Shown here: piece after piece, positions 1 to 51,246 of the stretch | Numbering within the stretch: the stretch's first letter is position 1 | How the letters are laid out: each line of letters starts with the position of its first letter | Assembly: GCA_020060545.1 (NCBI GenBank) | Contig: JAGUZX010000050.1 | Location: 1-51,246, forward strand | Length of the DNA: 51,246 nt | Origin: Desulfovibrio sp. | GTDB taxonomy: Bacteria > Bacillota > Dethiobacteria > DTU022 | Reading direction: 5' to 3' | The notes under the pieces: model-generated | Seen by the model: only the letters and a program-made list of their open reading frames with translations | Database searches by the model: none | What the model was told of the DNA's origin: nothing | Position numbers and translations under genes: made by a program

Positions 1-96
1 CTGCAGAGATGAGGGCGAAGCGCCCCGCTTTGAAATTTCCCTCCTGGGAAAGGGACAGGAGGTTCCAGAGAAACCGCTCGTCGCATTTAAGCATCT
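1..96 (-). pseudogene. prkA: prkA, 3'-side fragment (host gene cut by the prophage)
   Basis: Read on minus from 94, the sequence encodes MLKCDERFLWNLLSLSQ and continues EGNFKAGRFALISA to the window edge. This is a highly conserved stretch of PrkA, the AAA-domain protein kinase/protease-like protein of sporulation and stationary phase. It continues exactly in frame from the fragment at the right end (51246-51053), which ends GMMEFQQ-ML. The serine recombinase frame overlaps this DNA in another phase, but that reading looks random, whereas the PrkA frame is clearly conserved. The gene is split by the prophage and would be whole again after precise excision. Confidence 0.9.
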
Positions 97-1641
97 CCTC
101 AGATTCTTAGAGTCACACAACGTTCCTGGGTCTTCAAAGCGGTAGTATATGACCGCCCGCGAGTGCCGCTTGGCGTCCTTCTCTTCGGTGAACACCTCCA
201 CCCGGCTTACCAGGCCCTTGGCCAGTTCGAGCCTTTCTTCCTCTCCCAGCGTGGGCAGCCGGGTTGCCAGGCCCTCCATCAGCGCCTTGGCGTTCAGCGC
301 CCCGGCTTCAATGGTGGCCGCCGCTTCCTGTTGCGCGAAAAGAAACTCGCGCCGCTCGGCCAGGGACTCGATTTCCTTGGCGATCGACGAAAGCTCTGTT
401 TCCGCTTCGGCCTCCGTTACGACGCCCTTGGCGCAAAGGGAAAGCACCCTGGCCCTGGCCGCGTGTTTCTCGGCGACAGCGGTCTCGACCTGGGCCAGCT
501 CCTCGCGGGCGGGCTCGGCGTTCCGCCTGTTGGCCTCCAACTGCTCTTGCATCAGTTCCAGGACCTGGTCCGGGTTGCGGACAAAGTATTCTATGTCCTG
601 CCAGACGGCCTCCTCGATGTCCTTGGCCCTGATCATTTTCGCGTTGCACCGCTTGCCGGCCCCGGTATCCATGGCGCCCGTGCAGCGGTAGTACGTCCGG
701 CCCTGCTTGCTGTGCCCGGAGCTGCCGACCATGGCGCGGCCGCAGTTCCCGCAGAAGATCAGCCCGCGCAGCAGGTACGACCGGCCCCTGGAGCCCCTGG
801 CCGCGTCGGCGTTCGCCGTCAGCCGGGCCTGGGCGTCGGTAAACTCCTCGCGGGTGACGATCGCGGGGACCGGGACTGCGATGGTCTCCTTCTTCCGCTT
901 CGACCGCTTCAAATAGTGATAAGTCCCGGCGTAGGCGGTCGCCCGCAGGATGATCGAGATATGCCCGGCGTGCCACTTGCCGGTCGAGTTGTTCTTGGTA
1001 CGCTTTGAGACCGCCGGCGTGGGGATGTTTCTTGCGTTCAGGTAGGCGGCTAATTCTATGGTGCTTAGGCCGGGCTCCTGAAGATACAGCCGATAGATCA
1101 GCCTGACCACTTCGGCCTCGTTTTCGTGGATTTCCAGGCGGCCCTCGCTGATCCGGTAGCCGAACGGTGGGGGACCGGAAACCCATTTGCCCTCGCGCGC
1201 CCATCGCTCCTTGCCCAGCAGGGTCCGGTCCATGATGGTGTCCCGTTCCAGCGCGGCGATGCTGGCGAGCAGGGTCATAAAAAACTTGCCCGTCGGGGTG
1301 CTGGTGTCGAATGCCTCGGTCATGCTCTTGAGGGCGACGCCGTGGGCTTCGAGGAGTTCGTAGCTGTCCAGGACCACCTTGACGCTCCGGGCCAGCCTGT
1401 CCAGCCTGTAGACGTAAAGGGTCCGGTCTTTGTACTTCCCGGCCTTAACGTCGGCGATCAGCCTTGCGCCCGCCGGCCGGGACTCAATGGGAATCGTGCC
1501 GGAGACCCCTTCGTCCAGGTAAACAGCGGCTTCGATGCCGTACAACTCGAAATATCCCTTGGCGAACTGCAATTGGTTTTCGATATTGCCCTGCTCGGCC
1601 TGTTCATCGCTGCTGACGCGGGCGTAGAAGGCGTTTTTCAT
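1..1641 (-). CDS. int: Large serine recombinase (integrase); C-terminus altered by integration
   Basis: The resolvase catalytic domain has YARVSSDEQ (nucleophile Ser10), VYRLDRLARS (about 77-86) and LLASIAALERD (124-134). The recombinase domain covers about 150-260, a zinc ribbon uses Cys297, Cys300, Cys320 and Cys332, and a long coiled coil spans about 365-435, as in phiC31/TP901-type integrases. ATG 1641 follows a GGGGTGGTGG ribosome site. There is no stop before the left edge: from codon 519 the frame enters prkA out of phase. In the excised form the frame would instead continue at 51052 for 27 codons (EPYNIPAVEVVWQFQ...) and stop with TGA at 50969, giving 545 residues. The first 518 codons are phage-derived. 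It has its own promoter and follows a terminator, so expression in the lysogen is likely. Confidence 0.95.
   Translation of the reverse strand, partial: MKNAFYARVSSDEQAEQGNIENQLQFAKGYFELYGIEAAVYLDEGVSGTIPIESRPAGARLIADVKAGKYKDRTLYVYRLDRLARSVKVVLDSYELLEAHGVALKSMTEAFDTSTPTGKFFMTLLASIAALERDTIMDRTLLGKERWAREGKWVSGPPPFGYRISEGRLEIHENEAEVVRLIYRLYLQEPGLSTIELAAYLNARNIPTPAVSKRTKNNSTGKWHAGHISIILRATAYAGTYHYLKRSKRKKETIAVPVPAIVTREEFTDAQARLTANADAARGSRGRSYLLRGLIFCGNCGRAMVGSSGHSKQGRTYYRCTGAMDTGAGKRCNAKMIRAKDIEEAVWQDIEYFVRNPDQVLELMQEQLEANRRNAEPAREELAQVETAVAEKHAARARVLSLCAKGVVTEAEAETELSSIAKEIESLAERREFLFAQQEAAATIEAGALNAKALMEGLATRLPTLGEEERLELAKGLVSRVEVFTEEKDAKRHSRAVIYYRFEDPGTLCDSKNLRRCLNATSGFSGTSCPFPRREISKRGASPSSLQ
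88..96. other. attL: attL, left attachment core
   Basis: TAAGCATCT (minus AGATGCTTA) is shared exactly with 51053-51061 and sequence identity ends immediately on either side. Bases to the left are prkA and bases to the right are phage. A short identity segment is normal for serine integrases, whose crossover is a central dinucleotide; which dinucleotide is used cannot be told here. The att site lies inside the integrase reading frame, after codon 518. Confidence 0.85.
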
Positions 1642-1659
1642 AGTCCACCACCCCAGAGC

Positions 1660-1682
1660 ATATATATAGGCCAATTATACCA
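1660..1682 (-). promoter_or_regulatory. Integrase promoter, extended -10
   Basis: On minus, TGGTATAAT at 1674-1682 is a perfect extended -10 element. No good -35 is seen. Transcription would start near 1667, giving a leader of about 26 nt before ATG 1641. It lies downstream of the terminator at 1792-1833, so int is probably its own transcription unit. Confidence 0.55.
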
Positions 1683-2937: not shown

Positions 2938-3207
2938 TTATTCCTCTAACCCGTAACGCTTGAGAACTTCGTAGTCCCTGGGGGGCACCACCTGGTAGTC
3001 GTCGACTTCCAGGGCTTGCTCGCCGTTCGGACGGGCGTAGCACCTGGCGTATTCTTCGCAAACCGTGCCTTCGCCGTAGAAGTCAGAAAAGTATTTGTCG
3101 ATTACGTCCTCCGGCTTGCGTTTGTAGGGAAACCGCAATAACGCGCGGCCGATGTCCTCAAACTCGCCGCTGCGGACGGTCCATTTCACCAAAAGGCCCC
3201 GTGGCAC
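2938..3207 (-). CDS. Uncharacterised small acidic protein
   Basis: About 89 residues starting at GTG 3207 (MPRGLLVKWTVRSGEFED). A GTG at 3216 is also in frame, but the AGGAGG ribosome site (3216-3221) overlaps it and sits 8 nt from 3207, so 3207 is preferred. The protein is rich in Tyr, Glu and Asp (DKYFSDFYGEG, DDYQVVPPRDY) with no recognised domain. It lies 22 bp upstream of the sliding-clamp gene and just downstream of a terminator-like hairpin, so the pair may be expressed by read-through or antitermination. Confidence 0.65.
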   Translation of the reverse strand: MPRGLLVKWTVRSGEFEDIGRALLRFPYKRKPEDVIDKYFSDFYGEGTVCEEYARCYARPNGEQALEVDDYQVVPPRDYEVLKRYGLEE

Positions 3208-3231
3208 CGCCTGCACCTCCTTTCTGTTGGG

Positions 3232-4080: not shown

Positions 4081-5046
4081 TTAAGCCACGGCCTCCAGGT
4101 CGAGCAGCTTCATGGCCTGTTTACGGGCCAGTTCCAGGTTAGCCGCCGCGCCGATAACCTCGACTTCGAGCATTTCCTGGTACTCCGCGATCATGGCCTT
4201 CAACTCCTGGACGCGGCCCAGGTAATTGTCGATCGTCGTACCCGTAACCTTTTTGCCCTGCTCGGCCTGGTGGATCAGGCCCGCCATTTCGTCGATCAGG
4301 GCCTTGGACGCGGCCTTAACCTGGTCTTCCAGGCTCTCATGGACCATAGCCCGTTGCTCCTCGGTATCCACAACCGGCATGCTGTGCATTGAGCTTTTCC
4401 AGGAAGTTGCACTGTAGCCTGACAACTCTTTGACCATGCGCTGCAGGCCGTCCACGGTCTCCGCGTGCTTTTGAGGCACGAAGTAGACGCCGCCGCTGGG
4501 CCTGACCGAAACCGGGTTGCAGCCGTGGAGGATGCGCTGCACTATCTCCCGGACGTGGCGGCCGTTGTAGTTCATCTTGTCGGCCTCGTACCGCCTTGCC
4601 AGCCGCTGGACCATTTCGTGCTCCAGCCGGGACAACTCGATCAGGTCGACCAACTCCTTGACCTCCAGGCTCTCGCCGTTAAGCTCCAGGCTGAAAATCG
4701 GCTTGTACTCCAGACGCACGTTCTTGCTGTCCACGATCTCCCGCACAAGCTGGCGAACGACCTGATCCGGGCTGCATTTCACTTCCCGGACCAGCAGGTT
4801 AAGGTAACGGCCGCCACCGGCCAGTTCCTCCCGGTTCAACTCCATCGTCTTTGTCGCCCGTCTAAAGGCGTCCCGGTGGCTAATCGGGAAGGGCAGCCAT
4901 TTCTGGTCGATGCCCGCCCGCTCAAAAACGCCTTCAAGCTCCTCCCTGGTGATCCGGGTTTCTGTGATCGTGAACCAGAGCAGCCGTCCCAGAAGGCTTA
5001 TATCGTACACTTGGCCGTCAATGCCCATCAGTTTCTCGATTACCAT
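4081..5046 (-). CDS. Third gene of the MoxR/VWA set (DUF6744-like)
   Basis: 321 mostly helical residues. The C-terminal third is a likely coiled coil (DQVKAASKALIDEMAGLIHQ through LEVEVIGAAANLELARKQAM). The middle has VREIVQRILHGCNPVSVRPSGGVYFVPQ, a basic/aromatic segment that may bind nucleic acid or a partner. It resembles phage proteins grouped as DUF6744, from memory and unverified. It is 24 bp downstream of the VWA gene and ends at a strong terminator, so it probably works with the MoxR ATPase and VWA protein as substrate, adaptor or effector. Confidence 0.7.
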   Translation of the reverse strand: MVIEKLMGIDGQVYDISLLGRLLWFTITETRITREELEGVFERAGIDQKWLPFPISHRDAFRRATKTMELNREELAGGGRYLNLLVREVKCSPDQVVRQLVREIVDSKNVRLEYKPIFSLELNGESLEVKELVDLIELSRLEHEMVQRLARRYEADKMNYNGRHVREIVQRILHGCNPVSVRPSGGVYFVPQKHAETVDGLQRMVKELSGYSATSWKSSMHSMPVVDTEEQRAMVHESLEDQVKAASKALIDEMAGLIHQAEQGKKVTGTTIDNYLGRVQELKAMIAEYQEMLEVEVIGAAANLELARKQAMKLLDLEAVA

Positions 5047-5069
5047 TTTTCCTTCCTCCTCGTTTTATT

Positions 5070-6554
5070 TTAGTTGACTATCCGCTCAAACACTTCGCCG
5101 GCCACGTCGTCCGTCAGGTGACTGACCGGCCAGACCGCGTCACTCCACTTCTTCAGCTCGCCGGAGGGGTCCCGGTCGCCGATCAGGACCGTCCAGCAGC
5201 GGGCGCCGTGGTGCTTCTTGCGTTCCAAGAAGCCTTTCAGCCACTCGTCGTCAACCCTGCAGAGCCCGTCGGTGATCATCACCACGTCGGCGCTCTTGTA
5301 AGCCTGCTGGTCCATGTTGTCGACCGCCCAGGAGAGGGCCGGGACGTAGTCGGTGCCGCCGGCGGTCCCGGTGGATGCCATGTCGATGTACTTCTGCGGG
5401 TCCCGCTCGCCGGGGGCAAACTCGATCACCTTCAATACCCTGGTATCGACGAAGACGACCGCCGTCTGCCGCTTCTGCCGGGCCGCCGTGTCCGCCAGGC
5501 CCAGGGCTACGGCGATCGCCCAGTTCAGCGGGTGGCCGCTCATGCTGCCGCTGATGTCCACCAGCGCGATCATTGGGCCTTTGCCCTGGGGCTCGTTGGC
5601 CTGCAGCTCGTACTGCAGCAACTGGCCTTCCAGAAAACGCCGCTGGAAGTCGCGCCGGCGGACCGGGTTCTTGAGCGCCGCCAGTTCCGCCGGGAGCACC
5701 CGGCCCAGGTCGTTGCCGATCGTTATGCTGTGTATCTCGTCGCGGTTCTTCTTCACCCGCTGGTCGTACTTGGCCTTGGCCAGGTTCCGCATGCGGCCCA
5801 CCATGTCCGCCAGCTTCCGCACGTGGGGCATGCGGAGCTGTCTGACCAGGCTGATCCTGGCCTCCAGCGGAGCCTGCGCCAGATCGCCGGGTTCGAGCCC
5901 CCAGCCGCCCAGGGCGTTGACCGTCTGCCGGGCTTCCTCCTCCCCGGCCTTGGCAGCCTCTTTAACCGCCCGGCGTACCGAGCGGGCCGCCTGCTGGAGC
6001 GCCTGCCGGTTCTGCTGGGCCAGTGATCCGGCGTATTCCTGCGAGCCGTGGTCTTCCATGTTGTCGTACCCGGCTATCTCTCCCGCCTGGTGCATCGCTT
6101 CCTTTAACTCCGGGCGCTGTTCGATCTCCTGCATCAGCCTGCGCCCGGCGGCAACCGTGGCCAGGGCGCTTGAAAGTTCGTCAAGCGCCGTAATCACGCG
6201 GGCCTGGCCTGTTTCCGGGTCTTCCAGCAGTTTTTCCACGAACGGCCGGTTTGCCAGGTGGCCCTGCTCCACGTCGCTCTCCGGGGCCAACTCGGGGAGG
6301 CTCTTGTAAAAGCAGCCCCAGACGTCCTGCAGGAGCGCGGGCCAGGTGGCCATCTCCTTCTCGCCGGCCTGGTGTTGCAGGCCCCGCAGTTCGCCGCTGG
6401 CGTTCAGGACGTCCTTGTAGAGCCTCCCGTCGAGCCGGTCCATAATCAGGTTATTCTTGCGGGTAACGCGAGCAGCCGGGGTGTCGAGCGGAAGGTCCGC
6501 GGTCCCCGGCTGCCCCTGCAGTTCGTCGAGCGTCTGCATCAAATCCCCAGACAT
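5070..6554 (-). CDS. VWA-domain protein, partner of MoxR ATPase
   Basis: 494 residues. The N-terminal 320 are helical and the C-terminal VWA domain has a complete metal-ion site: D333-I-S335-G-S337, Thr401 (GGTDY) and Asp429 (ITDG). This architecture matches CobT/ViaA-like proteins that act with MoxR-family AAA+ ATPases to remodel or insert metal into protein complexes. The start overlaps the MoxR gene end by 16 bp, so the two are translationally coupled. No signal peptide, hence cytoplasmic. The target in a phage context is unknown. Confidence 0.9.
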   Translation of the reverse strand: MSGDLMQTLDELQGQPGTADLPLDTPAARVTRKNNLIMDRLDGRLYKDVLNASGELRGLQHQAGEKEMATWPALLQDVWGCFYKSLPELAPESDVEQGHLANRPFVEKLLEDPETGQARVITALDELSSALATVAAGRRLMQEIEQRPELKEAMHQAGEIAGYDNMEDHGSQEYAGSLAQQNRQALQQAARSVRRAVKEAAKAGEEEARQTVNALGGWGLEPGDLAQAPLEARISLVRQLRMPHVRKLADMVGRMRNLAKAKYDQRVKKNRDEIHSITIGNDLGRVLPAELAALKNPVRRRDFQRRFLEGQLLQYELQANEPQGKGPMIALVDISGSMSGHPLNWAIAVALGLADTAARQKRQTAVVFVDTRVLKVIEFAPGERDPQKYIDMASTGTAGGTDYVPALSWAVDNMDQQAYKSADVVMITDGLCRVDDEWLKGFLERKKHHGARCWTVLIGDRDPSGELKKWSDAVWPVSHLTDDVAGEVFERIVN

Positions 6555-7654
6555 TTCTCCACTACCTCCTTATTCCAGGATGCCACCTGCTCCCGGGCCT
6601 CCTGGATGCGGCCGGTGTCCTTCCCCTTGGCCTGGGCGTCGTTGAGCAAGCCTTCGAGCTTGTGCAACACCATTTTGAACTTCTTGTTCGATTCCCGGCC
6701 GGCGTCCGTCGCCTTGTCTTCGGGCGCGGCCATGGCGTTCTGGTAAGTTTCGACCGCTTCGTCCATCAGGTCGTTGACCGCCTGGACGATCGGGTTAGCC
6801 AGAGCCATGATCGTCTGCTTCACCTGCACCCGCTGGTCCGGCGTCTGCCAGAGCGCGTGGGCCAGGATTTCCAGGTCTTCCTCGGTGGCCTCCGTGCGGC
6901 CCTGGAGCCAGGCGTGGGCCTTGACCAGGTCGAGCGATTGCTTCCAGCGGCGGTCGCTGACCGGGATGTGCAGCTTGTTCATTTCCTGCCGCAGGCCCGC
7001 CAGGTGGCGGACGATCTTGGCGATGTCCACCTGGGCGACTGCCGCCTGGGCGCTGTCCAGTTCGTCCATGCTGATGGTGGTTCTGGTGGATGCCGCCCCG
7101 CCGTTGCCGGTGAGCATGGCGGCGAAGTTGCGCGGGTCCCGGATGTACGCCACCATGTAGCGCAGCAGGAAGCGATCCCAGAGCGCCGAAAGCTCGTCGC
7201 CTTCGGGCAGCTCGTTGCTGGCGCCGACTGCCATTTGCAGTGGCAGCATTGTCGGCGTCCCGTCGTTAAAGAAAAGGCGCTCGTTTAGCGCCGAAAGGTT
7301 CATGTTCAGCACGGCGCTGTTCGACTTCCAGATTTCGTCCAGAAACCAGAGGTCGGCCTCCGGGGCCTTGCCCGTGGTGACGCGCCGGTAGCTGTCATTC
7401 TCCAGCGCGGCCAGGCTGACCGGCCCGTAAAGCTCCTCCGGCGTGGTCGTCTTGGACAGCAGCCAGCGGAAGTAGCGGCCGCCGATCCGGGTGCAAAGGT
7501 CTTCGACCATCGCCGACTTGGCCGTGCCGGGAGGGCCCAGCAGGAGCACATGCTGCCGGGCCAGCAGGCCGATCAGCAGGCCCCTTGTTTCGTCGCGGCG
7601 CTCCTTGAAGCTGCCGTTTAGCTCGTTTTCGATCGCGGAAAACTTGTTACGCAT
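6539..7654 (-). CDS. MoxR-family AAA+ ATPase (RavA-like)
   Basis: 371 residues. Walker A GPPGTAKS (40-47), Walker B LWFLDE (102-107), sensor-1 Asn147 in GASNELPEGDELSALWDRF and the following arginine finger Arg161 define a complete MoxR ATPase; the ELPEGDE..ALWDRF motif is typical of RavA-type members. MoxR proteins work with VWA partners as chaperone-like remodelling machines. It is upstream of and overlaps the VWA gene. The basic/acidic C-terminal region (about 290-371) is predicted helical and may contact the partner. Confidence 0.92.
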   Translation of the reverse strand: MRNKFSAIENELNGSFKERRDETRGLLIGLLARQHVLLLGPPGTAKSAMVEDLCTRIGGRYFRWLLSKTTTPEELYGPVSLAALENDSYRRVTTGKAPEADLWFLDEIWKSNSAVLNMNLSALNERLFFNDGTPTMLPLQMAVGASNELPEGDELSALWDRFLLRYMVAYIRDPRNFAAMLTGNGGAASTRTTISMDELDSAQAAVAQVDIAKIVRHLAGLRQEMNKLHIPVSDRRWKQSLDLVKAHAWLQGRTEATEEDLEILAHALWQTPDQRVQVKQTIMALANPIVQAVNDLMDEAVETYQNAMAAPEDKATDAGRESNKKFKMVLHKLEGLLNDAQAKGKDTGRIQEAREQVASWNKEVVEKCLGI

Positions 7655-31842: not shown

Positions 31843-32765
31843 TCACCACCTAAATAATCGGCGGCCCAGTATTCTATGGCCTGCCAGAGGTTCTTTTTGC
31901 CCACATGGCCGTCTTCCTGCATCTGCTTGACGGCCCGCCTAACCACTTCGGCTGCCTCTTTAGGCATGGTGCCGCTGCCAAATATACTGGAGAGCGCAAC
32001 CCAGGGCTCGTCATCCTCCCGTATGCCCACCTCCGCCACTATTTCCAGGGCCGTCCGCGCCATTACGGCGACCGCCGTGCCCGCAGACCGGATGTCCATA
32101 AATCGGGAGAACTTGATCACTGCGTCCGCAAACGCCTTAAACAACTCTATCGGCGCGACGGAGACCAGGTCTTGCCTGCCCTCTAAGCTGTTGATTAGCG
32201 CCTTCATGTCGTCCAGTTGGTGAGGAAGAAACACAAACGATACAGTCTTCCAGTCAAAGTCGACCTTCGGCGCTATAAGGGTGTCCAAGACGGCCTCCGG
32301 TTCGGTCAATATATCCTTGGGTAGATGGGCCTCCAGCATGTCGTCGACATCCGTTATAATTTGCGCTATTTGCCGGATGATGTTTTGGTCGTCGAACCCG
32401 CTGATGCTGTTATGTGCGAGCTGTTTAGCCGCTATCTGCGAACGGCTCAGCCCCGACTCGTCCAGGAGCACGGTTATTTCCTTCAACCCCGCCTCCCTGG
32501 CCGCCCTGCTCCGGTGGTGGCCCGAGATTATTTCCACCCTCCCGTTGACCAGGGCGCAGAAGGGCAGGCTTTCCAGGGAGCCACGCTTTTTCACGTTGGC
32601 GACCAGTTGTTTGAACATGGCCGGGTTCATGGTCCGAGCGTTGACATCTTGCTCCCGCAGGTTATCCAGGACAACTCTGGCTATGCTCAGTCCCTGGCCC
32701 AGTTCGATTATTTTTTCATAGACTTGGCCCTCGCCTTCCTCCACTGGGCTTCCTTCCTGAGCCAT
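31839..32765 (-). CDS. ParB-like nuclease-domain protein
   Basis: 308 residues. The ParB N-terminal fold is clear: NVKKRGSLESLPFCALVNGRVEIISGHHRSRAAREAG, with the GHHR nucleotide-binding motif (CTPase/ParB-N). The C-terminal part is helical. Phages often encode such a protein next to a methyltransferase/Mom-like protein and TerS. Likely DNA binding or DNA modification support rather than partition, as no ParA is present. It overlaps the upstream gene by 58 bp. Confidence 0.85.
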   Translation of the reverse strand: MAQEGSPVEEGEGQVYEKIIELGQGLSIARVVLDNLREQDVNARTMNPAMFKQLVANVKKRGSLESLPFCALVNGRVEIISGHHRSRAAREAGLKEITVLLDESGLSRSQIAAKQLAHNSISGFDDQNIIRQIAQIITDVDDMLEAHLPKDILTEPEAVLDTLIAPKVDFDWKTVSFVFLPHQLDDMKALINSLEGRQDLVSVAPIELFKAFADAVIKFSRFMDIRSAGTAVAVMARTALEIVAEVGIREDDEPWVALSSIFGSGTMPKEAAEVVRRAVKQMQEDGHVGKKNLWQAIEYWAADYLGGE

Positions 32766-34141
32766 TCGGTTAATACCCCCTGTAGACTGTTGTCGTTCAA
32801 AGGCGCCTCGTATGTCAGGCGGTACCCCATCTTGGAATCCTTTGCCCGCCGCACGAGCTTCATAATGCCGCGTTCTTCTTTGCTTTCCGGTTTCGAAGTC
32901 AGCATGGCCGTGACCACGCTCTCGACTTTCTCGTATTCCAGCGGAGAAAGCACCGGCTTGATCACCGCGCGGGTCAAGGCCGCCATTGACAGGAGCCGGC
33001 CCATGCGGAGCGTGTTATGGGGCGTCGTAACGCCGTAGGTCAGCAGCAGCGCCGTGCGCTCCTCCTGCCCGAACCTCCCGATGTTGAGCCAGCCTGGATC
33101 GTATCCGAACACGCCCGCCAGGTACCCGTCCACTTTTAAGGCCAAGTTGATCGGCGCCGATTTCCCGGCGAAGTTGTGCGTCCAAATAGACCGGTAGTAC
33201 AGGGCGTTTGCCCTGGTGATGCTTTCCACCTCAACGCGCGACCTCTCGGTAATAGCGTGATCCGCCGGCATCGGTGGCCCCTTGAGGGGCTCCATGGCGA
33301 CCGGGCCTGGGCGGACGATTTTCTTTCCCCGCGCGAGAGCCTCTACCTCATCCGGCCTGTTTGTTGTAAGGTAGACATTTATGTTTTGGCGCACGCCGAA
33401 ACGTGCGAATACGGGAGCGCCTGCGGTCTTACCCGGTTCGTTTTCCTCGTAGCAGATTACCAGGGCCTTTGCGTCCTTTGCCCACTGGCACATTAGTTTT
33501 ACAAGGCCCGTTTCCGGGTCGAAGATTTCATATGGCGGTTCCTTCCACCGCATCCTTCCGCCGGTGTCGTACCACTTCTCAAAACCCGCCGTGTATGTGG
33601 GCGGGTTGATGCAGACAAGGGCCTCCGGGTCGGACAGGACCTCCGTCAGGTGAGCCCACATGCAGAGCGGGCGGTACCTCATTCCTGAAAGCAGTTCCTT
33701 CGCCCGCTGTAGCTGCTTTCGGATTACGCCCACATGGTGCTCTTGTCTTTTGTGCAGGTCGTGCAGCAACTCGGCGAAATATGTCTTGCCTGCCTTGGTA
33801 GCGGTTCTCAGGACCAGGTGCGTCCACAGGGCCACGGCCGGGTCGGTCAAGTCCTCCCCCTCGTAGCCATCCGCCTCTAAGCGCAGCCCCGCCAGGTCCT
33901 GTCCCGTGATTGCGTAGCCCATTATCGAACTGAACATCGACACGTCGCTGGTGTCGATTTGGTCCGCTGGCCACCCGACAGACTGTGCTAAGTGAGCCAT
34001 GGCGAAAGCCCCGGCGCATGGTTCTATAAACCGCGTGTAGCCCTGTCTCAAAGCGTTCTCGATAACCGCTTTCAAGAACGCCTGCTCTTTGGCAACCAGC
34101 GTGCCCAGGAAGAAAGAGCCTGGGTTCTGGAAACGTGCCAT
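32708..34141 (-). CDS. Putative antirestriction adenine methyltransferase with Mom-like C-terminal domain
   Basis: 477 residues from ATG 34141 (GGAGG upstream). Residues about 35-245 resemble D12-type N6-adenine methyltransferases: FIEPCAGAFAMAHLA (SAM binding) and the catalytic-type NPPTY (usual NPPY). Residues about 300-460 (ALYYRSIWTHNFAGKSAPINLALKVDGYLAGVFGYDP, NTLRMGRLLSMAALTR, and a VVTAMLTSKPESKEERGIMKL segment) match a GNAT/Mom-like half seen in phage antirestriction proteins. A likely role is base modification that protects phage DNA from restriction. The NPPT variation may mean binding of a modified substrate. Confidence 0.75.
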   Translation of the reverse strand: MARFQNPGSFFLGTLVAKEQAFLKAVIENALRQGYTRFIEPCAGAFAMAHLAQSVGWPADQIDTSDVSMFSSIMGYAITGQDLAGLRLEADGYEGEDLTDPAVALWTHLVLRTATKAGKTYFAELLHDLHKRQEHHVGVIRKQLQRAKELLSGMRYRPLCMWAHLTEVLSDPEALVCINPPTYTAGFEKWYDTGGRMRWKEPPYEIFDPETGLVKLMCQWAKDAKALVICYEENEPGKTAGAPVFARFGVRQNINVYLTTNRPDEVEALARGKKIVRPGPVAMEPLKGPPMPADHAITERSRVEVESITRANALYYRSIWTHNFAGKSAPINLALKVDGYLAGVFGYDPGWLNIGRFGQEERTALLLTYGVTTPHNTLRMGRLLSMAALTRAVIKPVLSPLEYEKVESVVTAMLTSKPESKEERGIMKLVRRAKDSKMGYRLTYEAPLNDNSLQGVLTEWLRKEAQWRKARAKSMKK

Positions 34142-44701: not shown

Positions 44702-45171
44702 CTCGCCACCTCCCAAGGCGCCTGCCAGTCCCAGAGGCCCTGAGCGCCCCTGGCCGGTATGGCCGGTTCAAAATGTTGAGGGTCGATGAAATCCCAGGCG
44801 AACCGGCCGGGCCGGTAGTCTCCGAAAGACCGCTCGGGCTCGCCGGGAAGCTGGCGGACCACGAAATAACCGCAGGTCCGGTTGTCGGCCGCTTCGACCA
44901 TGCCGCCGGGTGTAATGCGGAATATGGTCTGCAGTTTCGCCTGGCCCACAATACAGCCCAACGGCAGGTCGCAGCCGATAATCCCGGCTTTTCTAAGCAC
45001 TGAGAGGAAGGGCTCCTGCCGGCATAACTCCCGCGCCCAGGCCGGGAAGTTTTTGGCGGCGTGGATTGCCACGGGCCCACGGTAGTTCGTCGCCCAAGAC
45101 CGGGTTTCCGGGCCTTTGAGGTTGAGCGCCAGCAAAGTGGCGTATGGCTGGTAAAGCGTTAGGGCCTTCAT
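44698..45171 (-). CDS. ASCH-domain protein
   Basis: 157 residues from ATG 45171; the ORF extension upstream has no start support. MKALTLYQPYATLLALNLKGPETRSWATNYRGPVAIHAAKN is the characteristic ASCH fold (RNA- or nucleotide-binding, PUA-like), with the K-ETR and RG-LAIHAA patterns. Some ASCH proteins are nucleases or bind modified nucleotides. TTGA overlap with the hydrolase start. Confidence 0.88.
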   Translation of the reverse strand: MKALTLYQPYATLLALNLKGPETRSWATNYRGPVAIHAAKNFPAWARELCRQEPFLSVLRKAGIIGCDLPLGCIVGQAKLQTIFRITPGGMVEAADNRTCGYFVVRQLPGEPERSFGDYRPGRFAWDFIDPQHFEPAIPARGAQGLWDWQAPWEVAS

Positions 45172-45425
45172 TGGTAGGCCCTCTCCAGATGCCGCGAAGC
45201 GAGAACGCAGGGCGTCATTAAAACCTCGACAACCGTATTCTCGTCGACCGTCGTAGCCGGTCCAATCTCTGACTCTTGCTCTTGCGGAAAGTGAACTATG
45301 CAAACCTTGTGCTTTCTAAAAAACGCTTTTCTCTCGCCCACATAACCAACTCTTCCGTCCGGTTCCGGCAGCCGGATGACGGTGCCGTAATGGACGTTCT
45401 TAATCGCAGCCTCAACCTTGGCCAC
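45168..45425 (-). CDS. Uncharacterised small protein
   Basis: 85 residues from GTG 45425 (GAGAGG upstream). Strand-rich (YGTVIRLPEPDGRVGYVGERKAFFRKHKVCIVHFP...). The stop overlaps the ASCH start (ATGA). No family. Confidence 0.6.
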   Translation of the reverse strand: MAKVEAAIKNVHYGTVIRLPEPDGRVGYVGERKAFFRKHKVCIVHFPQEQESEIGPATTVDENTVVEVLMTPCVLASRHLERAYQ

Positions 45426-45954
45426 TATTTTCCTCTCCCTCCTGTTCGTTTTGCTCAACCGGGGCCGGTTGTTGGACCGGCCCCGTATCGCATACCGGGC
45501 GCATCGCTGGGATAAGGACGTCGACTAACCAGTTACGGAAAGCCAGGACTATATGTGTCGGTTGCGGTGGCGTCACCGATAAGGACAGGCGGCCAAGGGA
45601 CTCGATAAGCGCCACACCTTCGCGGCCGGCCTGGGATAGCAGGAAAGGGTCAGGGCCTATCAGTTGCCACAGGTGGAAGCAATTGTGGTGGATGTTGACA
45701 TAGTTTTCTGGCGCGGGTAATAGCATACCCACCTGGATGTCAGGCGGCATGAACGTGTAACGGGCGTCGCGGATTTCATCCCACGTCGGGTAGCGCGTAC
45801 CGTGGGCAATGCTCAGGTGCCAGCGGCCTCCCTCGATGCCCACCATCACCTTGCACTCGCCGTATTCAAAGGCGCGGGCGGTCGGGGCTGGTGAGGGAAT
45901 TTCTTTTATTTTCCTCGGTTCGTGTTTCTTGTCCGGTTTTTTGGCGTGCGACAA
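45412..45954 (-). CDS. Conserved phage protein (DUF7694-like pattern)
   Basis: 180 residues from TTG 45954 (GGAGG 8 nt upstream). WHLSIAHGTRYPTWDEIRDARYTFMPPDIQVGMLLPAPENYVNIHHNCFHLWQL is a conserved stretch in many phages and islands; the family number is from memory. The C-terminal end is a Pro/Gln/Glu tail. It lies 20 bp downstream of the gp3-like gene. Confidence 0.7.
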   Translation of the reverse strand: MSHAKKPDKKHEPRKIKEIPSPAPTARAFEYGECKVMVGIEGGRWHLSIAHGTRYPTWDEIRDARYTFMPPDIQVGMLLPAPENYVNIHHNCFHLWQLIGPDPFLLSQAGREGVALIESLGRLSLSVTPPQPTHIVLAFRNWLVDVLIPAMRPVCDTGPVQQPAPVEQNEQEGEENSGQG

Positions 45955-45974: not shown

Positions 45975-47054
45975 TTAGCGGAGTAAGGCACCGGGCAGCC
46001 AGTCCACGAACTGGTCCAGCAGCCCCTGGTCCTTGCAGACTTTCGACAGGTCTTTTATCTCCAGCGGATTGTTGATGTCCGGCGAGAAGAACACGCCGGC
46101 CAGTTCGAGCACTTTTTCCCTCGTAATACCCATCGCGTAAACGGCCTGCCAGAACTCATTCCACTTGATCTTGCCGTTCCCGCTGTTGCCGTTTTGCCGG
46201 GCTGGGCCGGCTTGAGCTTCCGGAGCAGGTTGCGGACCGGGTTTCGGCGGCGGCTCCTTGGTCTCGGCTGGCCCGCCTTCGGACCCGTTAACTACCTCGC
46301 CGTCTATAACCTTGCCGTCCGCGAGCACGTCCGGCGGGAAAAGGTCGTCCGGGGCTTCGTTCATGTCCAGGTCGATGCCCTGGGGAAGCGCATTTTCCTG
46401 GGGTATCGACTTCAGCATTTGCTCAAGCGTTAAATGCTGATAGTGCAAGTCCAGGACGTAGACCGTTTTCTTCTTGCCCTCCACCGTGGCCTCATGCGGC
46501 TTGACCATCAGCTTCAGCGGAATCATGGCAATACGGCCACCAGTGAGTGACATTAAGAATCTAATGGCGCTGTTGAGGTTCAGGATCGTGTTGATGCTTC
46601 TGCTGTCCAGTTGCCAGCAGCCGATACCGGGAACCTTTGGCAGCAGGAACATCAGCGTGCCCACCGCTAGGCATTGTTTATTCTGGTACCACTCGCAGGT
46701 GTCGGGATTGCAGTCGATCTCCCGCAGCTCTCCGGTCTCCCGGTCCGCCTCTACCGCCTTCACCCCGTCGCCTTTGCAGATCAGGCCCGTGCCTTTTCCA
46801 TAGCGCCGGTACCACTGCGGGAAGAAAGTTTCGATATTGTGTACCGGAAACATGATGTCGAGCACCTTGGGCTTTTCGCCGTAGACGTCGTGGAAAGCCT
46901 TGGCCATTGACTCCGGCGTGGACTGATCGGGATTGACGACGAAATAGTCGACAGGTTTGGGGTAAGAAGACCGCTGCCCTTCCACCTTGACGCCCAGGCG
47001 GACCTTGCCCAGCCGGGGCAGCCTGGTACGCTCGGAAAGATTCTTAATCGGCAT
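45975..47054 (-). CDS. Candidate recombination directionality factor (phiC31 gp3-like)
   Basis: 359 residues. The beginning MPIKNLSERTRLPRLGKVRLGVKVEGQ and YPKPVDYFVV match the Gp3-like family, whose phiC31 member switches its serine integrase to excision. A Cys cluster C93, C115, C120, C128 (CNPDTCEWYQNKQC) may bind Zn. A Pro/Gly-rich linker precedes a C-terminal helical part. Serine integrases need such a factor for attL x attR; none other is visible. Homology is by sequence pattern, so the role remains to be shown. It also may act in phage replication, as gp3-like proteins are made early. Confidence 0.75.
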   Translation of the reverse strand: MPIKNLSERTRLPRLGKVRLGVKVEGQRSSYPKPVDYFVVNPDQSTPESMAKAFHDVYGEKPKVLDIMFPVHNIETFFPQWYRRYGKGTGLICKGDGVKAVEADRETGELREIDCNPDTCEWYQNKQCLAVGTLMFLLPKVPGIGCWQLDSRSINTILNLNSAIRFLMSLTGGRIAMIPLKLMVKPHEATVEGKKKTVYVLDLHYQHLTLEQMLKSIPQENALPQGIDLDMNEAPDDLFPPDVLADGKVIDGEVVNGSEGGPAETKEPPPKPGPQPAPEAQAGPARQNGNSGNGKIKWNEFWQAVYAMGITREKVLELAGVFFSPDINNPLEIKDLSKVCKDQGLLDQFVDWLPGALLR

Positions 47055-47646
47055 TGCAGGCCGCCCCCTTCCCGTTCTCCGGCTTTCGGGCTTCGATCAC
47101 CCGGCTGGCCCACATGTCGGCCCAGTGCAGGATCATCTGCAGCGGAGTCTCCCTGCCCTGGATAACGCGGCCGTCGGGCGTGTATAGGCCGTTGTGGTAG
47201 AGGATCGCGTAAGTCTCTTCCTCGGTCAGGTAGATGTACTGGCTCAGGATGTGGACGCTGGCCACCTGGTGCGGGATCGGCAAGCGCTCCGGGTTGCAGC
47301 AGTAAGGCTTGCTGTCGCTGACCTTGCCGCTTTTTACCCGGTTCTGGATGTAGTGCGGTTTGGAGTAGTACATCGACTTACCCAGGTCGTGGAACAGGCC
47401 GCAGATGATCAGGGAATCGTCGGGGATGTCGTCTTTGTCCAGCCCAAAGGCGTTGCGCAGCCGGAACATCAGGCCGGTGACGTTCAGCGAGTGCCGGAGG
47501 TTGCCGGCCTCGCAGGCGCCGTGGTACTGGGTGCTGGACGGCGCGGTGAAATAGTCGCCTACGGCCAGGTAAAATACAAGGTGCTCTATGCCTTCGCGTT
47601 GGACACGGCGTAAATATTCAAATAACTCGTCTTTCAAGTCTTTCAA
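47044..47646 (-). CDS. HD-domain phosphohydrolase
   Basis: 200 residues from TTG 47646, TTGA overlap with the upstream HTH gene. H in GNLRHSLNV, HD in LFHDLGKSMYYS, later PHQVASVH and WADMWAS make a complete HD metal site. Possible substrates are nucleotides or cyclic nucleotides. It overlaps the gp3-like start by 11 bp. Confidence 0.88.
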   Translation of the reverse strand: MKDLKDELFEYLRRVQREGIEHLVFYLAVGDYFTAPSSTQYHGACEAGNLRHSLNVTGLMFRLRNAFGLDKDDIPDDSLIICGLFHDLGKSMYYSKPHYIQNRVKSGKVSDSKPYCCNPERLPIPHQVASVHILSQYIYLTEEETYAILYHNGLYTPDGRVIQGRETPLQMILHWADMWASRVIEARKPENGKGAACNAD

Positions 47647-49329: not shown

Positions 49330-49761
49330 ATGAAATACCTTGTTGAGCTGATCGGCGACTGTGACCACAAAGAGCTGCAGCGTAAAATCAACTACTGGTT
49401 ACGGGCGGAAAGGCCCCGCCGGGTCTACAGTGTCCAGTTTGTCGCCGACGGAACCGAGCTTACTTACTGCTGCCTGTTCCTTTACGCGCCGGGCAGATCG
49501 GCGGGCCGGTCGTCATCGGCCACAAACAAAACGCCTGGGGGGACGCCGAAGGGTTCAGCGATCCGCCGGGCGTTTCGTAGTTTGGTTTTCTTGCCCTTCT
49601 CGATCCGGCACAACCAGGCGGGTGACATACCAATTAGGCAGGCCAGGTGCGCGAGCGACCAGCCGCGGCCTACCCGCATCATCTGGAGCATCGTCACACC
49701 ATACTCGTTACGCCGGGGCTCAACGAGCAGGATGTCTGTAGCCCGCCGGTGCTCCTGGTGA
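49330..49761 (+). CDS. Cse60-like small protein with antisense-overlapping extension
   Basis: ATG 49330 has GAGG 6 nt upstream. The first 55 residues (MKYLVELIGDCDHKELQRKI, then a RVYSVQFVADGTELTYCCLFLYAP segment) follow the pattern of Cse60, a small B. subtilis sporulation protein. Beyond that (to residue 143) the frame is only the complement of the HTH gene at 49482 and looks meaningless, so the ancestral stop may have been lost. It is opposite to the early operon, which would be transcribed through it antisense. The Cse60 match is from memory. Confidence 0.5.
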   Translation: MKYLVELIGDCDHKELQRKINYWLRAERPRRVYSVQFVADGTELTYCCLFLYAPGRSAGRSSSATNKTPGGTPKGSAIRRAFRSLVFLPFSIRHNQAGDIPIRQARCASDQPRPTRIIWSIVTPYSLRRGSTSRMSVARRCSW

Positions 49762-49877
49762 ATGATCTGGTGTATCCGCTGGCGGCTGATCCGCAGTTCC
49801 CTGGCCACGGCAGCCTGTGTATCTCCGTTAGCCAGTTGGCTGATGATTTGCTTGGTCCGCTCGGCCATGTGCGCCAA
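49482..49877 (-). CDS. Early regulator with two HTH domains
   Basis: 131 residues from TTG 49877 (GAGG 8 nt upstream). First HTH: QIISQLANGDTQAAVARELRISRQRIHQII (resolvase/sigma-like). Second: LQMMRVGRGWSLAHLACLIGMSPAWLCRIEKGKKTKLRNARRIAEPFGV (XRE type). As first gene behind the early promoter and its operators, it is the likely Cro-equivalent. Confidence 0.82.
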   Translation of the reverse strand: MAHMAERTKQIISQLANGDTQAAVARELRISRQRIHQIIHQEHRRATDILLVEPRRNEYGVTMLQMMRVGRGWSLAHLACLIGMSPAWLCRIEKGKKTKLRNARRIAEPFGVPPGVLFVADDDRPADLPGA

Positions 49878-49889
49878 AATAACCACCTC

Positions 49890-49940
49890 GGTGATTTAAT
49901 TATAAATCACCTAACCGGGGATGTCAATAAGGTGATAACC
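49890..49940 (-). promoter_or_regulatory. Consensus early promoter with operators
   Basis: -35 TTGACA (49922-49927), 17-bp spacer, -10 TATAAT (49899-49904): an exact consensus. The -10 lies within the perfect palindrome GGTGATTTA-4-TAAATCACC (49890-49911). A second, weaker site GGTGATAACC is at 49931-49940, upstream of the -35. This is the expected binding region for the C1-like repressor. Confidence 0.9.
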
Positions 49941-49961: not shown

Positions 49962-49990
49962 TTGGGCTTCCCAAGTTGGTAGAATAAACT
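49962..49990 (+). promoter_or_regulatory. Repressor-maintenance promoter
   Basis: -35 TTGGGC (49962-49967 by best fit), 17-bp spacer, -10 TAAACT (49985-49990). It is divergent to the early promoter and near the same operators, as in lambda pRM/pR. Confidence 0.55.
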
Positions 49991-50007
49991 TGCGGGGTGA
50001 GGAGATT

Positions 50008-50484
50008 ATGAGCATCCTTGGGGATAGACTTAGACGTATCCGGGAAATGCAAGACCCGCCGTTGCTGCAGAAGACGGCCGCGCGGGAAATGGGCATGGAG
50101 CCGAACACCCTCAGCCGTTATGAGTTGGGGGAACGTGAGCCGGACGCCGAAACCCTGGTCAAGCTCGCCGAATACTACGGTACCACGACGGATTATTTAT
50201 TGGGCAGGGCCAACAACCCGAACCTGCCGGAAGAAAGGGAAAACGGCGTGATGCAACTCGTGCCCCACCACGCCAGAGACCGGGTAGAAGCATTCTCGGA
50301 GCTTGGGGAGATAGCGGATCGGGCCGGTCTTTCGTCCGAGCAGATTACGAAGTTAATTAAGGTGATCGCCGAAGTGATTGCGCCGCCCAAGGGCAGCAGG
50401 AAAAGCAGTTTGGCGGCGCACATGGAGAGCCCTCAACCGGGGCAGGTCGCTGGCGGGTGTGTTGATGGGGACGATAACCATTGA
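50008..50484 (+). CDS. C1-like phage repressor
   Basis: 158 residues from ATG 50008 (GAGGAG upstream). HTH domain: LLQKTAAREMGMEPNTLSRYELGEREPDAETLVKLAEYYGTTTDYLLG. The C-terminal part is short, helical and Pro/Gly-rich without the Ser/Lys site of LexA-like self-cleaving repressors. Inactivation is therefore likely by the ImmA-like protein next door. Overlaps it by 20 bp. Confidence 0.88.
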   Translation: MSILGDRLRRIREMQDPPLLQKTAAREMGMEPNTLSRYELGEREPDAETLVKLAEYYGTTTDYLLGRANNPNLPEERENGVMQLVPHHARDRVEAFSELGEIADRAGLSSEQITKLIKVIAEVIAPPKGSRKSSLAAHMESPQPGQVAGGCVDGDDNH

Positions 50485-50977
50485 CCACTTGTTGCTAATT
50501 GCCTCGTTTTTGGGCGCCAGGGTGACGTATTCCGACCTTCACGCCATACATCCAAAACTCGAGGCCTATACGAGATTCCCGGCGATCCATCTTGATAAAT
50601 CCCTGGAGTGCCGTCCGCGCCAGCACAGGTGCGTTCTTGCCGAAGAGATCGGGCATGTCTGCTACCCGCCCAGACCGGGCCATGTGGCCTACCACGTCGC
50701 CGGCTCGTGGAACTCCCTGGATTATGAGGCCCGCGACGGCTTGGCGGTAATTGTAGCCCAGGACGAACGCAAAGCCCTAAAGTGGGCAACCGGGCTGTTG
50801 ATACCCAATAGCGCTTTCTGGCGCTTTGCTGGGAAAGGGCCACAAAGTATGGAAGACTGGCTGGAGGAGTTCGACGTGGAAAGGTGGTTCTTGGAAGCCA
50901 AAATCGGCCTGATCCGCGTAAGTCAGCCACCGAGGCAGCGGCTGCAGTGGAGGAATCTGATCAAACGCTCAATGTAA
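50465..50977 (+). CDS. ImmA/IrrE-like protein with altered HExxH
   Basis: 170 residues from ATG 50465. CVLAEEIGHVC aligns with the zinc-protease HExxH helix, but the first His is replaced (AEEIGH). Some phage members share this, so activity may be lost or a different ligand used. ImmA proteases cut the partner repressor in ICEBs1-like switches. TAA at 50975-50977 would overlap the integrase stop (50969-50971, minus) in the excised form. Confidence 0.82.
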   Translation: MGTITIDHLLLIASFLGARVTYSDLHAIHPKLEAYTRFPAIHLDKSLECRPRQHRCVLAEEIGHVCYPPRPGHVAYHVAGSWNSLDYEARDGLAVIVAQDERKALKWATGLLIPNSAFWRFAGKGPQSMEDWLEEFDVERWFLEAKIGLIRVSQPPRQRLQWRNLIKRSM

Positions 50978-51052: not shown

Positions 51053-51061
51053 TAAGCATCT
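51053..51061. other. attR: attR, right attachment core
   Basis: TAAGCATCT, identical to 88-96. Bases to the right are prkA, bases to the left are phage. In the excised circle this phage side supplies the last 27 integrase codons and its stop. Confidence 0.85.
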
Positions 51062-51246
51062 GCTGGAACTCCATCATCCCCCTGTTGGCGATGTTCAATT
51101 CGCCGTCAAAGCGGTAAGCGCGCGGGTCTGACTCCGACCCGTACTCGGTTATTGCGGAAAAATCTATACTGCCGGTTAGTTCTGCAATGTCCTGCGACTT
51201 CGGGTCGGACGGTGTGAACGTGCCGATACCCACTCTTTTCTCCTCC
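51053..51246 (-). pseudogene. prkA: prkA, 5'-side fragment (host gene cut by the prophage)
   Basis: Minus frame open from the window edge: EEKRVGIGTFTPSDPKSQD, then IAELTGSIDFSAITEYGSESDPRAYRFDGELNIANRGMMEFQQML. These are signature PrkA residues (AAA part), upstream of the segment found at 96-1. Beyond the junction the frame runs 30 codons into phage DNA to a stop at 50961 (RTIQHSCCRSRL...), giving a truncated protein in the lysogen. The gene start is outside the window. In Bacillus PrkA supports sporulation and prkA lies with yhbH and spoVR. Confidence 0.92.

Follow-up and report, generated by a model that had tools for sequence, protein, structure and literature searches.

Does the Gp3-like gene in the early region of this prophage encode the recombination directionality factor (RDF) of the large serine integrase encoded at the prophage's left end? 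Serine integrases need some RDF, the known RDFs are unrelated to one another, and according to published work no reliable rules exist by which to recognize them (PMC5311408). A sequence-only reading of the same DNA had proposed the gene as an RDF dedicated to this integrase. Our analysis favored a broader account, to which we assign a probability of roughly 0.55, in which the protein has an early DNA role that is independent of any integrase and is also the leading, though unproven, candidate RDF of this prophage.

A prophage in prkA and its early region

The window (the whole stretch of DNA that was analyzed, 51,246 nucleotides) is a complete contig and holds a whole Firmicutes prophage of ~51 kb, inserted in the host gene prkA. 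Its two junctions are marked by the following features.

1..1674, minus strand: large serine integrase gene at the left junction, with Resolvase, Recombinase and Zn_ribbon_recom domains
88..96, minus strand: attachment core AGATGCTTA, at the junction of the phage and the C-terminal half of prkA
51053..51061, minus strand: attachment core AGATGCTTA, at the junction of the N-terminal half of prkA and the phage

Read on the minus strand, the right end of the window encodes the N-terminal half of PrkA through MMEFQQML, and PrkA picks up again at MLKCDERF at the left end; when the flanks were joined, MMEFQQMLKCDERFLWNLL of prkA was restored. A second assembly, Ammonifex sp. SURF_55, carried the same prophage and insertion with longer flanks, in which both halves of prkA were present at length (on one side, 1 mismatch to the window over 15.5 kb; on the other, 0 over 5.6 kb). 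One base of the prkA part, at position 51147, differs between the two assemblies. The three integrase domains and the matching cores at both ends confirmed that the prophage has a large serine integrase, whose true start is probably MKNAF at about 1641. The left attachment core falls inside the integrase reading frame, so that the C-terminal tail of the enzyme is not the same in the integrated (...RRCLNATSGFSGTSC...) and the excised (...RRCLEPYNIPAVEVV...) states. We considered and set aside an excision from prkA that is developmental and tied to sporulation, as with SPbeta and spsM; literature searches on prkA gave no paper that was evidently about such an insertion.

Several other genes of the prophage were noted in passing. 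Beside the integrase, positions 1860-2915 encode a weakly matching DNA polymerase III beta-clamp-like protein, below the Pfam cut-off. Genes for DUF6744, VWA and MoxR-type AAA proteins stand in a row at 4081-7654, an unusual cargo for a phage, and at 32708-34141 an adenine-methylase-like phage domain (PF22555) is fused to a GNAT-like phage domain (PF22559).

The early region comprises the following features.

45412..45954, minus strand: DUF7694 gene, downstream neighbor of the Gp3-like gene
45975..47054, minus strand: Gp3-like gene (PF18897), 359 aa with an ATG start (open reading frame, Pfam and AlphaFold2)
47044..47646, minus strand: HD-domain protein gene, upstream, sharing 11 nt with the 5' end of the Gp3-like gene
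49482..49886, minus strand: HTH protein gene on the Cro side, first gene of the early unit
49890..49911, no strand: operator-like inverted repeat GGTGATTTA-4-TAAATCACC with 9-bp arms, overlapping the -10 element
49899..49927, minus strand: sigma-70 type early promoter TTGACA-17-TATAAT, 12/12 matches
49990..50484, plus strand: HTH repressor gene, divergent from the early promoter
50378..50977, plus strand: Peptidase_M78 (ImmA/IrrE-type) gene adjoining the repressor gene

The 359-aa reading frame lies exactly where it had been placed. It had also been put under a repressor-controlled consensus early promoter, and promoter, operator repeat and divergent repressor gene were all found, the palindrome overlapping the -10 element. 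The Gp3-like gene begins ~2.9 kb downstream of this promoter, from which one transcript may reach it, and translational coupling with the overlapping HD-domain gene is probable. The Peptidase_M78 product is likely to be an anti-repressor protease; the repressor and ImmA-like pair at 49990-50977 resembles an ICEBs1-type induction module.

Family, fold and conserved residues of the Gp3-like protein

A Pfam profile search assigned the protein to PF18897, "Gp3-like, recombination directionality factor-like" (E = 8e-55, 186.1 bits against a cut-off of 23.6), with a match spanning model positions 1-189 of 191, which upheld the earlier family assignment. The same model matched phiC31 gp3 at 1.7e-17. 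BLASTP of the window protein against phiC31 gp3 gave nothing significant (E = 0.028), so the link requires a profile or a structure; identity over the core is 14-16%. A family profile found the PDB RDF chain 9teh_I, which is phiC31 gp3 and the sole solved relative in a sequence search, at 1.1e-47. As phiC31 gp3 is itself one of the 16 rows of that profile, independent support comes from its own PF18897 match and from the structure comparison below. The gene product is thus a PF18897 member and a homolog of the phiC31 RDF. Both peptides that had been quoted as signatures, including YPKPVDYFVV, are present; alignments showed that they are conserved in the Bacillota-type branch and not in phiC31 gp3. 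No near-identical DNA was found in the phage collection.

The protein consists of an OB-like core (residues ~12-210), an acidic proline-rich linker (217-296) and a helical C-terminal domain (~298-352). An AlphaFold2 model made with 79 relatives was confident in the core (mean pLDDT of 92-98 in 10-residue blocks over residues 11-200), beyond which it showed a disordered acidic linker and then a small helical end. One PDB chain alone matched the core significantly: 9teh_I, which is the RDF in the excisive synapse of phiC31 (VIA Z 12.1 across 183 residues; Foldseek E = 9e-8). Below it came OB-fold ssDNA-binding proteins (RB69/T4 gp32, BRCA2, SSB and RPA chains), with weak matches (RB69 gp32 Z 4.4, BRCA2 OB 3.8, SSBs 2 to 2.8, RPA70 Foldseek E = 0.05) whose Z of 2 to 4.4 lies below 8, where a match may reflect merely a common arrangement. 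The OB-fold likeness of the modeled core is in this sense suggestive only.

Four cysteines stand out in the core. Of 79 sequences, 78 have C115 and all have C93, C120 and C128, and this near-invariance suggests that they probably form a zinc site; the Bacteroidota phage versions of the protein do not have them. An acidic C-terminal tip of the SSB type was tried as a family feature and dropped, as it occurs in few members (such as L110, ...RDEIPF, and L019, ...NNEPF) and is lacking in the window protein.

Seven residues of phiC31 gp3 are required for integrase binding: G27, M105, C117, G119, P154, P168 and L170 (PMC5814800). In our alignment G27, G119 and P168 are identical in the window protein, L170 is replaced by Ile, and M105, C117 and P154 differ, with C117 probably corresponding to Cys93, two residues away in the alignment. 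Both glycines are also retained in relatives from integrase-free genomes, so they report the fold and not the function.

Occurrence with integrases and neighboring genes

If the protein were a dedicated RDF for the window integrase, with no other main function, its relatives should track serine integrases, a criterion of our own and not a published definition. The protein's kinship with phiC31 gp3 in sequence and fold speaks for such a role, as does the presence of a serine integrase in the same prophage. Moreover, in 5 of 11 Bacillota genomes with the gene, the window genome included, the contig also carries a serine integrase within plausible range, at 3 kb (G115), 5 kb (G001), 27 kb (G299) and 29 kb (G229) in the four others; in one of the 11 a tyrosine integrase lies 7 kb away. 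G070, a close relative with no integrase nearby, was dropped as evidence, being an IS-ridden remnant.

The wider survey did not bear this out. Integrase domains were scored in 50 IMG/VR records of at least 30 kb that hold a related protein, and the majority were without a serine integrase: 5 had one and 15 a tyrosine integrase (2 of these had both), and 32 had neither, a class that may include partial genomes, since many IMG/VR records are fragments and absence of an integrase is therefore an observation of lower quality. A control set of 28 records, picked on the basis of an unrelated gene, contained no record above the serine-integrase cut-off (2 were weak), with phiC31 detected as a positive control; these numbers are small, and 5/50 against 0/28 leaves room for serine integrases to be modestly enriched where a Gp3-like gene is present. 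No serine integrase match was obtained in four complete Bacteroidota phages that have a Gp3-like gene, and none of them has an annotated integrase, although in the record of one (OP172640) no gene is given a function. In an apparently integrase-free Bacteroides phage (L025:8536-9267) the gene is annotated as "recombination directionality factor", an annotation probably carried over from the naming of the family.

On the protein tree, the serine label required 9 changes for its 10 rows, compared with 9.4 when shuffled (208 of 500 shuffles were as low), and serine-linked members were scattered. The supported clade of five that holds the window protein mixes serine, tyrosine, none and undetermined. 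The label "none" does cluster, a sign that the tree is informative; phiC31 gp3 forms a very long branch of unsure placement. Nor did any core column separate serine-linked from other members beyond permutation (fraction 0.17). Family members therefore do not track serine integrases as dedicated RDFs would, and the proposal of the sequence-only reading, that Gp3-like membership together with a resident serine integrase identifies the RDF, was not supported; we consider a dedicated RDF quite improbable.

Profiles of the genes beside family members returned Cas4-, RecE- and other exonucleases, SbcC-like ATPases, replication initiators, DnaB and SSB. Beside the window copy no exonuclease was found, the neighbors being the HD protein upstream and DUF7694 downstream. 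Annealing proteins of the RecT, Erf and Rad52 types were absent among 25 upstream Pfam families and among the downstream matches listed. Canonical SSB genes adjoin some family members, so the Gp3-like protein does not just stand in for an SSB. The phiC31 RDF gene is likewise reported to lie near replication genes, and its product to have a phage replication function besides its RDF role (PMC5311408). From these neighborhoods and that precedent we take the members of the family to be early proteins of DNA replication or recombination, with an OB-type core and a putative zinc site, and open to recruitment as RDFs.

As most related genes are in viruses without a matching integrase, the window protein is probably a DNA-handling protein and may be an RDF too. 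The integrase-independent job is probably the original one, and probably involves the handling of ssDNA alongside phage exonucleases; the OB-fold ssDNA-binding proteins that come next among the fold matches speak for it. More tentatively, the whole family may be a group of OB-fold phage proteins with a zinc site that bind or anneal ssDNA and act as partners of exonucleases and replication genes in phages from many phyla, the phiC31 RDF, and possibly the window protein, having been recruited from it to steer a serine integrase.

The protein might instead serve replication or recombination only, the RDF being another, unrelated and probably small protein. The known RDFs are diverse and several are small (PMC5311408), the tree suggests that Gp3-like genes and integrase type were exchanged independently, and the prophage has small early or integrase-side reading frames without assigned function, e.g., 2938-3216 and 45168-45458. 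Against this, phiC31 gp3 also works on the divergent phiBT1 integrase (PMC5814800, PMC11530663), which suggests a fold that easily takes on the RDF role for different integrases, and we hold a separate RDF to be unlikely.

Returning to the favored account, that of an early DNA protein that is also the leading candidate RDF, we put its activity as a genuine RDF with the resident integrase at slightly under even odds. A route can be modeled on phiC31. Lysogenic repression would be lost, possibly through the ImmA-type protease encoded beside the repressor, and the early promoter would then fire and the Gp3-like protein accumulate. It would bind the resident serine integrase at its zinc/coiled-coil domain and so permit synapsis of attL with attR, and the prophage would be excised and prkA restored.

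Should the protein indeed switch the integrase, the known RDFs would gain one for a serine integrase from a deep-branching Bacillota host, with defined attachment sites, which would be useful for reversible genome engineering. If the reading of the family is right, it would explain the diversity of RDFs, early DNA-handling proteins having been recruited separately, and a Gp3-like match alone should then not be annotated as an RDF.

Comparison with known systems

The closest known system is phiC31 gp3 (also phiBT1 gp3 and TG1 gp25; PDB 9teh series), which shares the Pfam family and the fold (Z 12.1). Both proteins are products of early genes in temperate phages that carry a serine integrase, and the glycines for integrase binding are kept. 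In contrast to phiC31 gp3, the window protein has 359 rather than 244 aa, an acidic linker and a helical C-terminal domain as additions, and a differently spaced cysteine site, and it is known from sequence and a model.

The Gp3-like proteins of Bacteroidota phages (P2559S gp47, BKO1-3 gp14, AS73P1 and TCUEAP2) belong to the same family by sequence and fold, and the best fold match in BFVD was I6S743, of 237 aa like P2559S gp47. These phages differ in having no annotated integrase, in the position of the Gp3-like gene at or near an exonuclease gene, and in lacking the four cysteines.

OB-fold ssDNA-binding proteins (T4/RB69 gp32, the RPA70 C domain, SSB and the BRCA2 OB domain) have a similar core arrangement, with weak matches at Z 2 to 4.4, a range that may reflect that arrangement alone, and no sequence similarity to the window protein was found. 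Both gp32 and RPA70 C carry a zinc site.

Bxb1 gp47, whose family is evolutionarily unrelated to the Gp3-like family, offers a precedent in function: in a passage of PMC5311408 citing Savinov 2012, it is described as an early replication protein that also serves as an RDF.
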